Positions 32,674-39,343 of a stretch of 64,000 nucleotides of DNA are shown one piece after another (position 1 is the first letter of the stretch; each line of letters opens with the position of its first letter). The notes beneath the pieces were generated by a model that had not been told where the DNA came from, made no database searches, and saw nothing but the letters and a program-made list of their open reading frames with translations. The translations under genes and the position numbers were made by a program. Source of the DNA: Rhodobacteraceae bacterium F11138 (GTDB lineage: Bacteria > Pseudomonadota > Alphaproteobacteria > Rhodobacterales > Rhodobacteraceae); assembly GCA_016521575.1 (NCBI GenBank), contig JAEKDP010000001.1:849894-913893 (forward strand), read 5' to 3'.

Positions 32674-33258
32674 CTAGCGTTTGCGGTCCCGGCGTGAACT
32701 CATGGGTTGAAACGCGACGCCGACATGGGCCTCGCAATACGGTTTGCCCGCCTGGACCGGCAGCCCGCAAAACCAGAAATCTTCGGTCGCGGGGTCGCCG
32801 ACAGGCCATTTGCAGGTCCGTTCTGTCAGCTCCATCAAGCTGATTTTCTTAGCTTTTTTCTCAACTTCGTTGACCTTGGCCAAGGCTTCCGGGCTGATTT
32901 CATTGGCCGAGGGTTGGGGCGGCAGGGGCTGACCGGCGGGAATGATCTGTTTGCGCACAGGTACGGCGGGCCGGGTTTCGCCCTGGGGTGGCACGGGGCG
33001 GGCGGCTTCGGTCTTGGGGGCCGGGCGCGGCTTGGGTTCCGGTTTGGGGGCCGCGGCGGCGGCGGCGGCCGGGGCCGGCTTGGGCTCTGGCTTGGCCGCG
33101 GGGGCACCCGCGCTGCGGTTGGAAAGACCCAGCCGGTGCACCTTGCCGATGACAGCGTTGCGGGTTACACCGCCGAGCTCCTTGGCGATCTGGCTGGCCG
33201 ACTGGCCTTCGCCCCACATTTTCTTGAGCGTCTCGACGCGCTCGTCAGTCCAGGACAT
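32674..33258 (-). CDS. gcrA: GcrA cell cycle regulator
   Basis: Protein of 194 residues. The N-terminal DNA-binding domain MSWTDERVETLKKMWGEGQS followed by ASQIAKELGGVTRNAVIGKV is diagnostic of GcrA. A long Ala/Pro/Lys-rich linker (about residues 50-115) joins it to the C-terminal sigma-70-contacting region ending in CKWPVGDPATEDFWFCGLPV. GcrA works with CcrM-methylated GANTC sites to activate cell-cycle genes in alphaproteobacteria. A well-formed promoter and, unusually, a terminator-like hairpin lie in its leader (33326-33353 and 33276-33302). Confidence 0.95.
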   Translation of the reverse strand: MSWTDERVETLKKMWGEGQSASQIAKELGGVTRNAVIGKVHRLGLSNRSAGAPAAKPEPKPAPAAAAAAAPKPEPKPRPAPKTEAARPVPPQGETRPAVPVRKQIIPAGQPLPPQPSANEISPEALAKVNEVEKKAKKISLMELTERTCKWPVGDPATEDFWFCGLPVQAGKPYCEAHVGVAFQPMSSRRDRKR

Positions 33259-35199: not shown

Positions 35200-35400
35200 G
35201 GCGTTGCATTGGCGCGATTGTGCCGGGCAGACAAGCCCGAATGCGGTGCGACAGACGACGGTATCGGCGTTCGGATCCGTTTTCGGTCGTGCCGTGTCTG
35301 GCTGTCTTGGCGGGGGTGTGCGTGCCGCGTCCTCCGCGTTTTTCCAGGCCGGGCCCACAAAACGCTTTCCTTGGCGGCAGTCCTGTCCTATGACCACGCC

Positions 35401-35454
35401 ATGAACCTCGCCAAGCATATCCTTTTTGCCCGACGCCGACGCCAAACCGCGTAA
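35401..35454 (+). CDS. candidate arginine leader peptide for argD-argF
   Basis: A 17-codon frame reads MNLAKHILFARRRRQTA and stops at TAA (35452-35454), 112 bases before argD. Codons 11-14 are CGA CGC CGA CGC, four Arg in a row, the arrangement expected of a peptide whose translation senses charged tRNA-Arg. TATGAC at 35389-35394 would place a transcription start near the ATG, so it could be leaderless, as known alphaproteobacterial leader peptides can be; the -35 element is weak and no ribosome site is seen. The frame is also open upstream, so chance occurrence is possible. Confidence 0.4.
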   Translation: MNLAKHILFARRRRQTA

Positions 35455-35497
35455 CGGCCAGCTTGTTCATTGCGCCCATCATGGGCCGCTCTTCTTC
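35455..35497 (+). promoter_or_regulatory. alternative hairpins between leader peptide and argD
   Basis: GCCCAT (35474-35479) can pair with ATGGGC (35481-35486) next to CGCTCTTCTTC, a poor terminator-like element. Alternatively CGGCC (35455-35459) can pair with GGCCG (35484-35488). The two pairings share bases 35484-35486 and so exclude each other, as in attenuators. The stem is short and the T-run interrupted, so this is only suggestive. Confidence 0.3.
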
Positions 35498-35566
35498 AAA
35501 AACCGTTGACCCGATGACCCGATGTGAGGCACTCACAGGGTTTCTTGCCTGATAAGGATGTTCCGA

Positions 35567-36742
35567 ATGATCCCGTCCGTTCTGCCGACCTACAACCGTG
35601 CGCCGCTGACATTTGTCAAAGGCGAAGGCACCTGGCTGATCGAGGCGGACGGGCGACGTTTTCTGGATCTGGGCGCGGGAATCGCGGTCAACGCGCTGGG
35701 GCATGCACACCCGGCGCTGGTCGCGGCGCTGAGCGAACAGGCGCAGGCGCTGTGGCATGTTTCGAACCTGTATCAGATCCCGCAACAGCAGGCGTTGGCC
35801 GACCGGCTGGTTGAATCGACCTTTGCCGATACGGTGTTCTTTACCAACTCCGGCACGGAATCCTGTGAATTGGCGGTCAAGATGGCGCGCAAGTATTGGC
35901 ATGACAAAGGCCATCCCGAGCGCACCGACATCATCGCATTCGAAGGCGCGTTTCATGGCCGCTCTTCGGCCGGAATCGCGGCCGCGGGATCGGCAAAGAT
36001 GACCACGGGGTTCGGCCCGCTGCTGCCCGGTTTCGTGCATCTGCCGTGGGGCGATCTGGCAGCGGTCCGGGCTGCAATCACCGATACGGTCGGGGCCATC
36101 CTGATCGAACCGGTTCAGGGCGAAGGCGGTATCCGTGCCTTGCCCGATGCCGATCTTGCGGCCTTGCGCAGCCTTTGCGACGAACATGGCATCCTGCTGA
36201 TCCTGGACGAGGTCCAATGCGGCATGGGCCGCACCGGCAAGCTGTTTGCCCATGAATGGGCCGGGATCACCCCGGATATCATGATGGTGGCCAAGGGCAT
36301 CGGGGGGGGCTTTCCGCTGGGTGCGGTGCTGGCGACCGAAACTGCGGCTGCGGGCATGGTCGCTGGTACACATGGGTCGACCTATGGCGGCAATCCGCTG
36401 GCTTGCGCGGTGGGCTGTGCGGTCATGGACATCGTAGCAAACCCAGGATTTCTGGATGAGATCAATCGCAGGTCGGGCCAATTGCGTCAGGGGCTCGAAG
36501 GGCTGGTGGGGGCGCATCCCGACGTGTTCGAGGCGGTGCGCGGTTCGGGCCTGATGCTGGGGCTGAAATGCAGGGCGGCGAACACGGACGTGCTGCAGGC
36601 GGCCTATGACGCCAACCTGATCGTCGTGCCGGCCGCGGATAACGTGGTGCGCCTGCTGCCGCCGCTGACCATTACGGAAGACGACGTAACCGAGGCGCTG
36701 CGCCGCCTGGACAGCGTGGCCGCGGCCATCGAAGCGGCCTGA
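35567..36742 (+). CDS. argD: acetylornithine aminotransferase
   Basis: Protein of 391 residues, a class III PLP aminotransferase. [19 protein letters not shown] binds PLP phosphate, [13 protein letters not shown] carries the PLP-binding Asp, and the Schiff-base Lys is in [14 protein letters not shown] (about residue 243). It transaminates N-acetylornithine in arginine synthesis and may also serve in lysine synthesis. The ATG at 35567 is preferred over 35558 because AAGG lies nine bases before it. argF follows 72 bases downstream, so the two form an operon, possibly preceded by an Arg leader peptide. Confidence 0.93.
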
Positions 36743-36814: not shown

Positions 36815-37741
36815 ATGAACCATTTTCTTGACATTCACAAAACCGATCCGGCCGATTTGCGGGCGATGATCGACCAGGCGGGCCAGATGAAACAGGCGCG
36901 CCAGGGGCGACCCAAGGGGACGGCGGATGACGATCAACCGCTGAAGGGGCGGATGGTTGCGCTGATCTTCGAGAAACCCTCGACCCGCACGCGCGTGTCC
37001 TTTGATGTCGGCGTGCGCCAGATGGGCGGAGAAACCATGCTGCTGTCAGGTGGCGACATGCAGCTGGGACATGGGGAAACCATCGCCGACACCGCGCGGG
37101 TGCTGTCGCGTTACGTGGATCTGATCATGATCCGGACCTTTGACGAAACCGTGCTGACCGAGATGGCCGAATATGCCGACGTGCCGGTGATCAACGGGCT
37201 GACCGATCGCACCCACCCTTGCCAGATCATGGCCGATGTCATGACCTATGAAGAGCATCGCGGCTCGATCGCGGGCAGGAAAGTGGTCTGGGCCGGTGAC
37301 GGCAACAACGTTTGCGCCTCGTTTCTGCACGCGGCGGGGCAATTCGGGTTCGATCTGACCTTTACCGGCCCGCCGCAACTGGATCCCGAGGCTGAATTCG
37401 TCGATTTCGCGCGCAACATGGGCAGCACCATCACCATCGAACGGGATGCGGCCAGGGCGGTTCAGGACGCTGACCTGATCGTGGCCGATACCTGGGTGTC
37501 GATGCATGATGCGCAATCGGCCCGCGAGCGGCGTCACAACATGCTGCGGCCCTATCAGGTCAACGCGGCGCTGATGGCACAGGCGAAACCGGATGCGCTG
37601 TTCATGCACTGTCTGCCTGCACATCGCGAAGAAGAGGTCACCTCGGAGGTGATGGACGGACCCAATTCGGTGATCTGGGACGAGGCTGAAAACCGCCTGC
37701 ACGCGCAAAAGGCGGTCATGCGCTGGTGTCTGGGGGTCTGA
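36815..37741 (+). CDS. argF: ornithine carbamoyltransferase
   Basis: Protein of 308 residues. The carbamoyl-phosphate motif STRTR lies at residues 56-60 in [26 protein letters not shown] follows the NGLTDRTH segment, and the ornithine-site [13 protein letters not shown] is near residue 270. It converts ornithine and carbamoyl phosphate to citrulline. It is the second gene of the argD-argF pair. Length and motifs agree with anabolic OTCases. High confidence. Confidence 0.95.
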
Positions 37742-37855: not shown

Positions 37856-39343
37856 ATGCCAGATTTGAAAGATGCGGACGACGTCGGTATTCGCGGCAAG
37901 GTCGAGCTGACGACCAATTGGTGGAAACAGGCCTGGCCGATGGACAAGAAACCGTCGGCCGACGCCCGAATGACCGCGGCTTTGAAGGACTACAAGAAGG
38001 CCAAGATCGGCAAATCCGCCGGCGATCTGATCGACGCGCTGGACGAGATCGACAAAGCACTGGACGCCCTGGCCGGGGATGCCGGAAAGATCCCCAAAAA
38101 GAACCCGCGCAAGAAGAAAGCCATCAAGGACGATCTGAAGAAGGCCAAGGCCATGGTGAAACAGGATCTGGCCGCGGTTCAGAAATACGGCAGCAAGGAA
38201 CGTGTCATCTACAAAAAGGACTTTGGCGCGGCGATGCACCAGTCCGTCAAGGACATCAAGCTGGGTGTCAGCTCGGCTCCGGTTGAGCTGAAGTTGCTGG
38301 AGGTGCTGGCGCTGGAGATCGAGTCCAAGGGCGGATTGGCCATGTTGAACAACATGCTGAACAGCGAATTCGACAGCGCGGTCAAGACCTGTGACAAGGA
38401 CCTGCGCGCCATCGTCAAACGCGCCGGTGGTCTGATGGACGCGGATTCGATGACCAATGTGATCGATTCAGTGACCCAACATTCCCAGGATCTGCAGGAA
38501 GAAATGCGCGAAATTCCGATTCTGGTGATGCGCAAGATGCGCATCCATGCCTCGGTGGCCAAGGCCTACAAGAAAGAGAAGGCGGTCAAGATCACCAAGG
38601 GCACGGTTGGCGTCGGGCTGGGCGTGGCCGGGGCGGCGCTGCCGGGGACCCTGCCGTTTGCGCTGGTCGCGCTGGCGCGTTCGATCGCGTCCCTGGCCAA
38701 GGAAATCGCCACCGTGTGGATGGATCTGGACACCAAGATCAAACTGTTCGTCAAGCAGCTGTCGGCGCTGGCGGTGGTCTACAAGAAACATCGCGGGGCG
38801 CGCGAAATCGCGCTGAGCTCGTTGAACTCGGTGTTGGGCGTGGATGTGGCGCCGACCTTGAACAAGGCCAAGGCGGATCTGAAGGAAATCGAGAAATGCG
38901 TGGCGGTGTTCTATCATCGTGTCACCAAGTTGACCAAGAAGGTCTATGAGGCGCTGGACAAATCGAACGAGTTGACCAAGCGGTTTGAAAGTTCGGCGTC
39001 CGACGTCAAGGCGTTCATGGCCAGCAAGAAAAATCGCAAGATCAAGACGGCCATGTCGGATCTGGATTCGATTCTGGACAAGACCCATATCCTGATGCGC
39101 CAGGCCGTCGATGCCGAAAAACAGGTGCCGAAACTGCGCAAGGGACTGAAGGATCTGGGTGAAAATTCCGGCAAGGTGGACAAGGCCAATGTCATCCTGG
39201 GCCAGGTCATAAATATGGCCGTTGCAGTTGGCGGGCTGGGCGATGCCGCCGCGGTGGGTCAGGCCATCGAAAGCGTTGCCGTGGCCAGCGTCGGTTTATG
39301 GATGGACTCGGCCGAAGCGGGTAAGGAACTGGGCAGCCTCTAG
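37856..39343 (+). CDS. unrecognised Lys-rich helical protein with central hydrophobic hairpin
   Basis: Protein of 495 residues with no signal peptide and no family I recognise. It is nearly all helical and Lys/Asp/Glu/Ala-rich. Residues 1-240 and 285-445 look like long amphipathic or coiled-coil helices (for example KKAIKDDLKKAKAMVKQDLA). Residues 246-283 are a hydrophobic stretch with a Gly/Pro turn (TVGVGLGVAGAALPGTLPFA), and residues 447-483 are a second hydrophobic region. This plan recalls alpha-helical membrane-inserting proteins such as ClyA-like toxins or apolipoprotein-L-like proteins, by general architecture only. It is monocistronic after argF and ends overlapping the stop of the phosphate transporter gene. 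Two Cys (residues 179 and 348) are present. The coding frame is strongly supported; function is open. Confidence 0.8.
   Translation: MPDLKDADDVGIRGKVELTTNWWKQAWPMDKKPSADARMTAALKDYKKAKIGKSAGDLIDALDEIDKALDALAGDAGKIPKKNPRKKKAIKDDLKKAKAMVKQDLAAVQKYGSKERVIYKKDFGAAMHQSVKDIKLGVSSAPVELKLLEVLALEIESKGGLAMLNNMLNSEFDSAVKTCDKDLRAIVKRAGGLMDADSMTNVIDSVTQHSQDLQEEMREIPILVMRKMRIHASVAKAYKKEKAVKITKGTVGVGLGVAGAALPGTLPFALVALARSIASLAKEIATVWMDLDTKIKLFVKQLSALAVVYKKHRGAREIALSSLNSVLGVDVAPTLNKAKADLKEIEKCVAVFYHRVTKLTKKVYEALDKSNELTKRFESSASDVKAFMASKKNRKIKTAMSDLDSILDKTHILMRQAVDAEKQVPKLRKGLKDLGENSGKVDKANVILGQVINMAVAVGGLGDAAAVGQAIESVAVASVGLWMDSAEAGKELGSL

Follow-up and report, generated by a model that had tools for sequence, protein, structure and literature searches.

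The described system that comes nearest in form to the one considered here is the trpL leader of S. meliloti, in which tandem cognate codons precede a biosynthesis operon and the RNA starts with the ATG of the leader itself (sections of PMC7298713). Other leaders share single features with it. A genome scan yielded uORFC-8-2, a Cys-codon leader positioned before cysS in Rhodobacterales (sections of PMC8632094), and in the Salmonella orf34-speF system consecutive Arg codons in the upstream frame respond to arginine, with the involvement of Rho (parts of PMC6386406). The initial annotation of our locus suggested that ribosome-mediated attenuation of arginine genes would be a new mechanism; control through an Arg-codon leader already has a precedent in Salmonella speF (parts of PMC6386406).

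The leader that we describe lies upstream of argD and argF. Like trpL, it places a row of cognate codons ahead of a biosynthesis operon, and its RNA is inferred to start in the same way; unlike trpL, as that leader is presented in sections of PMC7298713, it encodes arginine, has few U-runs and no conserved antiterminator that could be found, pairs its start codon with bases that follow its stop codon, and is followed by a promoter-like element before the operon. With uORFC-8-2 it has in common the order of bacteria and the placement of tandem codons inside the first stem, but uORFC-8-2 carries Cys codons, precedes a tRNA-synthetase gene and has a 3' U-run (sections of PMC8632094). The orf34-speF system differs in having two Arg codons, in preceding a polyamine gene and in belonging to other bacteria (parts of PMC6386406). 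The listings of a literature search contained no report of an argD leader, and term searches of PMC4809877 and PMC5107571 gave no match.

The locus was studied in a window of 64,000 nucleotides (the whole stretch of DNA that was analysed); its features are listed in Table 1. The frame of 17 codons and its run of four tandem Arg codons are present where the initial annotation had placed them, and the gap to argD is indeed 112 bases (35455-35566), after which the argD ATG begins at 35567; a second in-frame argD ATG is found at 35558. All 80 named loci of the family encode, 3' of argD, a STRTR motif, which we take to be the motif of OTC. The sequence CATATC (His-Ile) at 35416-35421, a short way 5' of the Arg run, recurs in the leaders of the alignment called A1 below, and an HI dipeptide is present in 52 of 196 leaders. 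Elsewhere in the window, a 495-aa frame 3' of argF (37856-39340, + strand) has no NCBIfam match, and a GcrA-like cell-cycle regulator (32674-33258, - strand) matches NF050816 with a score under the curated cut-off.

Table 1. Features of the argD upstream region and neighbouring genes (positions in the window)
Feature	Position	Strand	Evidence
-35-like CTTTCC of possible promoter P1	35365..35370	+	T 0.80 at -35, n=129
-10-like TATGAC of P1, 6 bases 5' of leader ATG	35389..35394	+	sequence; -12/-11 frequencies
Leader peptide gene, 17 codons, encoding MNLAKHILFARRRRQTA*, probably leaderless	35401..35454	+	frame conservation; SD-like sites at background
Strand A of helix A:X, AUGAAC, including start codon	35401..35406	+	fold of 35401-35500, swap tests, pair counts
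Arg run CGA CGC CGA CGC	35431..35442	+	codon counts in 118 four-codon runs
Hairpin H1	35435..35458	+	fold; 4-pair core counts; mean fold z
Strand X of helix A:X, GUUCAU	35465..35470	+	fold, swap tests, pair counts
Hairpin H2, 3' of X	35472..35489	+	fold; covariation in relatives; terminator-like in simple scan
C/U/A-rich, G-poor stretch 3' of H2, candidate Rho-loading or processing site	35490..35505	+	family profile
TTGACC-N17-GCACTC, candidate argD promoter P2	35506..35534	+	TTGA[CT] in 200/206; consensus scan silent
Hairpin H3, TGTGAG-GCA-CTCACA, around P2 -10	35523..35537	+	fold, simple scan; arms covary
argD, acetylornithine transaminase	35567..36742	+	NCBIfam; alternative ATG 35558
argF, ornithine carbamoyltransferase	36815..37741	+	NCBIfam

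Insight into this leader comes from comparison of argD upstream regions across the family, 133 from family genomes and 80 from named loci that include Sedimentitalea, Ruegeria, Phaeobacter, Roseovarius and Sulfitobacter, names from which the family is taken to be Rhodobacteraceae. Seven of these 213 regions were removed because their last 250 bases were identical to those of others, leaving 206 distinct regions. Of 199 family genomes searched for argD, 191 gave a match; the better-scoring of the matches listed were taken, one genome per genus, to give a sample of 129 genera (G109 was left out). Of the 206 distinct regions, 155 contain an ATG-initiated frame of 5-30 codons that includes three or more Arg codons in tandem, as do 23 of 1030 dinucleotide shuffles. 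When each genus is represented by a single genome, runs of at least three are found in 95 of 129 genera and runs of at least two in 121. The short Arg-codon frame is thus conserved, and the concern that the run might be a product of chance in a GC-rich genome is set aside by the shuffles. The 12-base Arg motif by itself occurs at 11 sites in its own genome versus 7 for a reversed control and at 6 versus 7 in another genome (G002). Because the motif itself is not rare, it is its conservation that constitutes the evidence, and this conservation across genera, together with the covariation described below, reduces the probability of a chance origin to a negligible level.

In 26 of the 129 genera the leader has just two tandem Arg codons; these leaders are weaker evidence, since exactly two are reached in 141 of the 1030 shuffles. 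Two-Arg leaders appear as a second type, with ends such as IRRA or IRRDI, in L016, L017, L025, L029, L039 and others. No leader could be assigned in eight of the 129 genera; L055, one of the unassigned, has just 217 bases upstream. In the longer runs the order of codons is nearly fixed: among 118 four-codon runs, CGA, CGC, CGA and CGC occupy positions 1 to 4 in 117, 107, 109 and 110 cases, respectively. In leaders whose run is at least three codons long, CGA accounts for 319 of 750 Arg codons; the argD genes of the named loci use it for 94 of 1234. A single tRNA-Arg is expected to read both CGA and CGC. The near-fixed order would point either to one tRNA-Arg serving as the sensor or to a need of these bases for pairing.

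The leader frame reads as leaderless. An SD-like 4-mer precedes 16 of 196 leaders, which is the background level (79 of 980 windows), while it precedes 204 of 206 argD starts. In addition, when 129 sequences are aligned on the leader ATG, there is an enrichment of T or A at -12 (0.53 and 0.39) and of A at -11 (0.53), along with the enrichment of T at -35. These features suggest that P1 probably starts transcription at or near the leader ATG. The proposal that TATGAC would make the peptide leaderless agrees with the background level of SD-like sites and with the base frequencies, but a consensus sigma-70 scan of 35201-35600 called no promoter and so detected neither P1 nor P2. (It should be noted that many promoters of Alphaproteobacteria are described in parts of PMC8407463 as being without T at -7.)

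What is new in this leader is base pairing between its first 12 bases and a segment 3' of its own stop codon, with compensatory changes in relatives. This emerged from swap tests, in which pairing energies within one genome are compared with those obtained when segments are exchanged between genomes. Among 1059 segment pairs in 150 sequences, the top signal is that between the first bases of the leader and the stretch behind the stop (z -7.6). Using 196 leaders, the leader start and the whole stretch from the stop to TTGAC give z -17.4; leader bases 13-24, used as a control against the same stretch, give z 0.0. Covarying stems, which the initial annotation had proposed as a mark of such a leader, are thus present: with one sequence for each of 121 genera, A:X gives z -11.4, with 0 of 2000 permutations as low (neighbouring control bases, z -0.1), and the arms of H2 and H3 covary too. 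The A:X signal is also seen in 85 leaders that do not start with ATGATC (z -7.8) and in the 26 two-Arg genera (z -2.8, 6 of 2000 permutations as low). In two-Arg leaders (n=37), strand X is located 3' of H2 in 18, overlapping H2 in 12 and 5' of H2 in 7.

Hairpin H1 involves the Arg codons directly. In the window, GCCGACGC of the Arg codons (35435-35442) pairs with GCGU at 35449-35452 and CGGC at 35455-35458, and the AA of the stop codon is bulged, so that in the 100-base fold Arg codons 2-4 are paired with the stop region. Across 155 sequences the H1 region has a mean fold z of -0.90 (36-base window opening 24 bases 5' of the end of the stop codon). Pairing was also counted in a length class of 44 leaders, which have 17 codons and TTGAC 50-57 bases behind the stop. 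In all 44 (alignment A3), A:X and the H1 core are 85.4% paired, compared with 21-38% when the alignment is slid, and 9 of 12 pairs have changed on both sides, compared with 4.0 in shuffles (0 of 500 reach this number). The 4-pair core of H1 is 90.3% paired in these 44 sequences and 95.4% in a chosen 27. Alignment A1 (35 sequences), from which the badly aligned L086, L104, L154, L174, L177, L198, L203, L205 and L208 were dropped, is 72.6% paired; its number of pairs changed on both sides is reached in 7 of 500 shuffles and its number of further types in 218 of 500. Alignment A2 (27 sequences), from which L005 and L058 (misaligned) and L146, L161, L163, L164, L170 and L180 (near-duplicates by eye) were dropped as well, is 90.0% paired when H2 is added, with 10 of 17 pairs changed on both sides. 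The paired columns of A1 and A2 were chosen by viewing the alignments, and in A2 the choice of rows and columns favours the structure; the swap tests are free of such choice.

RNAalifold returned 5 pairs on A1, missing A:X, and a result without A:X on the 44 sequences as well. The fold of the 166 bases at 35401-35566 lacks A:X and scores no better than its shuffles (z 0.00); the fold of 35401-35500 contains A:X and has z -1.12, with 23 of 200 shuffles as good. Rfam gave no match at gathering score in the window and none at E<=1 in 35301-35620.

The pairings 3' of the leader were to have formed a switch of two mutually exclusive structures. A hairpin does fold where one had been drawn at 35474-35479/35481-35486, but that version would have a 1-base loop; in the fold, the arms of H2 are 35472-35478 paired with 35482-35485 and 35487-35489, with a loop of 3. 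The other pairing, 35455-35459 with 35484-35488, is complementary in the window (CGGCC/GGCCG) and would exclude both H1 and H2, but it is not kept in relatives. A conserved antiterminator between the 8 bases behind the stop and the 3' arm of H2 was accordingly rejected: in 155 sequences the swap test gives z +1.3, and at least 5 pairs are possible in 22 of 155 versus 16% of swapped combinations. Pairing of GCGUAA with the 5' arm of H2, spotted by eye in A1, was likewise set aside as a conserved feature. Among the 1059 segment pairs no competing pairing covaries, a test that a competitor of constant sequence would escape.

A simple terminator scan of 35201-35600 finds 3 sites where 0.6 are expected, and both H2 and H3 are terminator-like; their T tails in the window are T-rich but interrupted. 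Consequently, weak intrinsic termination may occur in this window. In the family, TTTT is found within 10 bases 3' of H2 in about 5% of 173 leaders and within 10 bases 3' of H3 in about 3%; within 14 bases 3' of H2, it is found in 5 of 136 leaders with three or more Arg codons and in 9 of 37 with two. The stretch that follows H2 is rich in C and U and poor in G in the family (2-8% at T-16 to T-8 and T-6 to T-2, 11% at T-7), and the mean fold z for windows starting at T-24 to T-12 is +0.38 to +0.55. Such a C-rich stretch would be a fitting place for Rho to load or for the RNA to be processed.

This rarity of U-runs behind H2 and H3 would also fit a leader that works post-transcriptionally, such that the position of the ribosome alters RNA decay or argD translation rather than termination, as in orf34-speF. 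A base-paired RNA 5' end would suit control of decay, and Salmonella orf34 works partly in this manner (parts of PMC6386406). Yet no pairing between the leader and the argD ribosome-binding region is among the 28 strongest of the 1059 segment pairs, and H2 and H3 in the window do look like terminators to the simple scan; we consider a purely post-transcriptional leader unlikely.

Within the genomes sampled, convincing copies of the leader occur before argD alone and in this family alone. A covariance model of the element, which fits the 17-codon type best and overlooks many leaders, matches 28 of 120 family genomes, with one match each. By coordinates 24 of the 28 lie before argD, and on reading two more do, giving 26; the remaining two look by eye like chance matches in coding sequence. 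The model matches 2 of 124 genomes of the class, both within Rhodobacteraceae. Among 40 regions upstream of argD in other families, 4 contain three or more tandem Arg codons, and by eye these are unlike the leader. The upstream regions of argG, argC, argH and argJ (32 regions from 8 genomes, with argC located through matches below the cut-off) contain 3 three-Arg frames, which do not recur and are also unlike the leader by eye. In line with what had been anticipated, a search for classical ArgR gave no match in the family: PF01316 scored in 0 of 61 family genomes, including that of the window, while 9 of 14 control genomes were positive.

The region between the leader and argD contains an element of its own. 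Of 206 regions, 200 carry TTGA[CT], for the most part 55-65 bases 5' of argD, with GCAC at the distance of a -10 element; a weight-matrix scan of the window for further P2-like elements reaches a maximum of 9.9, versus 17.9 at argD. In the 4 of 40 other-family regions that were inspected as sequence, TTGACA precedes argD, and the -10 appears more canonical by eye. A transcription start downstream of 35454 had been named as evidence against an attenuator, and the conserved TTGAC at 35506-35510 looks like just such a second, leader-independent argD promoter; P2, as judged from its sequence, may thus place part of argD expression beyond the control of the leader. If P2 alone drove argD, then the P1 transcript could serve chiefly as an independent small RNA, or as the source of a peptide, with a target elsewhere, like rnTrpL/peTrpL of S. 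meliloti, whose RNA starts at the trpL ATG and acts in trans (sections of PMC7298713). The near-universal P2-like element, which by eye persists in L095 and L099 where the leader does not, is compatible with this idea. However, 26 of the 28 model matches lie directly before argD, and all six regions without TTGA[CT] have an assigned leader, which in one of them (L117) ends 79 bases before argD; these six regions would therefore depend on P1. A role mainly in trans thus seems improbable.

The arms of H3 (35523-35537) covary between genera and could belong to an operator or to an RNA element. If H3 were the operator of a repressor acting at P2, the leader would be secondary, and the palindrome does cover the -10. 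Its arm sequences, however, vary among genera yet stay complementary, which is RNA-like, and no regulator was identified; we give regulation at P2 very little credence.

Taken together, sequence comparison establishes the leader, its codons, its helices, its position and its distribution, and the element is real, conserved in most of the sampled genera and probably an arginine attenuator. More specifically, it seems reasonably likely that argDF is controlled in cis by an arginine leader-peptide attenuator. In favour of this are the conservation of the Arg run with its near-fixed codons and CGA enrichment, the background level of SD sites, the covariation of A:X, the location of the model matches before argD with an OTC motif 3' of it, and the ArgR search with no match in the family. 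It is weakened by the lack of a conserved antiterminator, the scarcity of U-runs, a possible bypass through P2, the eight genera with no assigned leader and the 26 two-Arg genera, the silence of the promoter scan and the shuffle-like 166-base fold. Thus, of the original attenuator idea, the conserved, probably leaderless frame, the conserved RNA structure and a family in which no ArgR was found remain, but the antiterminator does not.

We propose the following mechanism, in which the start of transcription, ribosome stalling, the sense of regulation and the step at which it takes effect are inferred. The P1 RNA would begin at the AUG of the leaderless 17-codon frame, so the ribosome would have to decode CGA CGC CGA CGC. 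With ample charged tRNA, the ribosome would finish quickly and the RNA would close, forming A:X, H1 and H2; in this closed state, P1 transcripts would be shortened or degraded before argD, and candidates for the output are Rho, RNA decay and, for certain species, weak intrinsic termination. Under a shortage of charged tRNA-Arg, the ribosome would stall on the Arg codons, H1 would not form and refolding would be changed. More of the P1 transcript would then continue into argD, on top of a basal contribution from P2. Because strands A and X would both, in principle, stay free while the ribosome is stalled, this accounts for the switch only in part.

The start-codon clamp is an unusual feature of this leader. 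It is conceivable, and we suggest it tentatively, that the 5' end with the start codon is itself the switch strand, clamping behind the stop, and that an output through Rho or decay replaces the U-run terminator; initiation, stalling at the Arg codons and folding would then compete. The terminator-like appearance of H2 and H3 in the window makes this version less likely. Were it true, the job that ArgR does elsewhere would be done for argDF across the whole family by such a clamp. With no ArgR found in the family, a conserved arginine leader would in any case answer how arginine is sensed for argDF, and it would provide a testable example of a switch on a leaderless mRNA that operates without a clear classical terminator.
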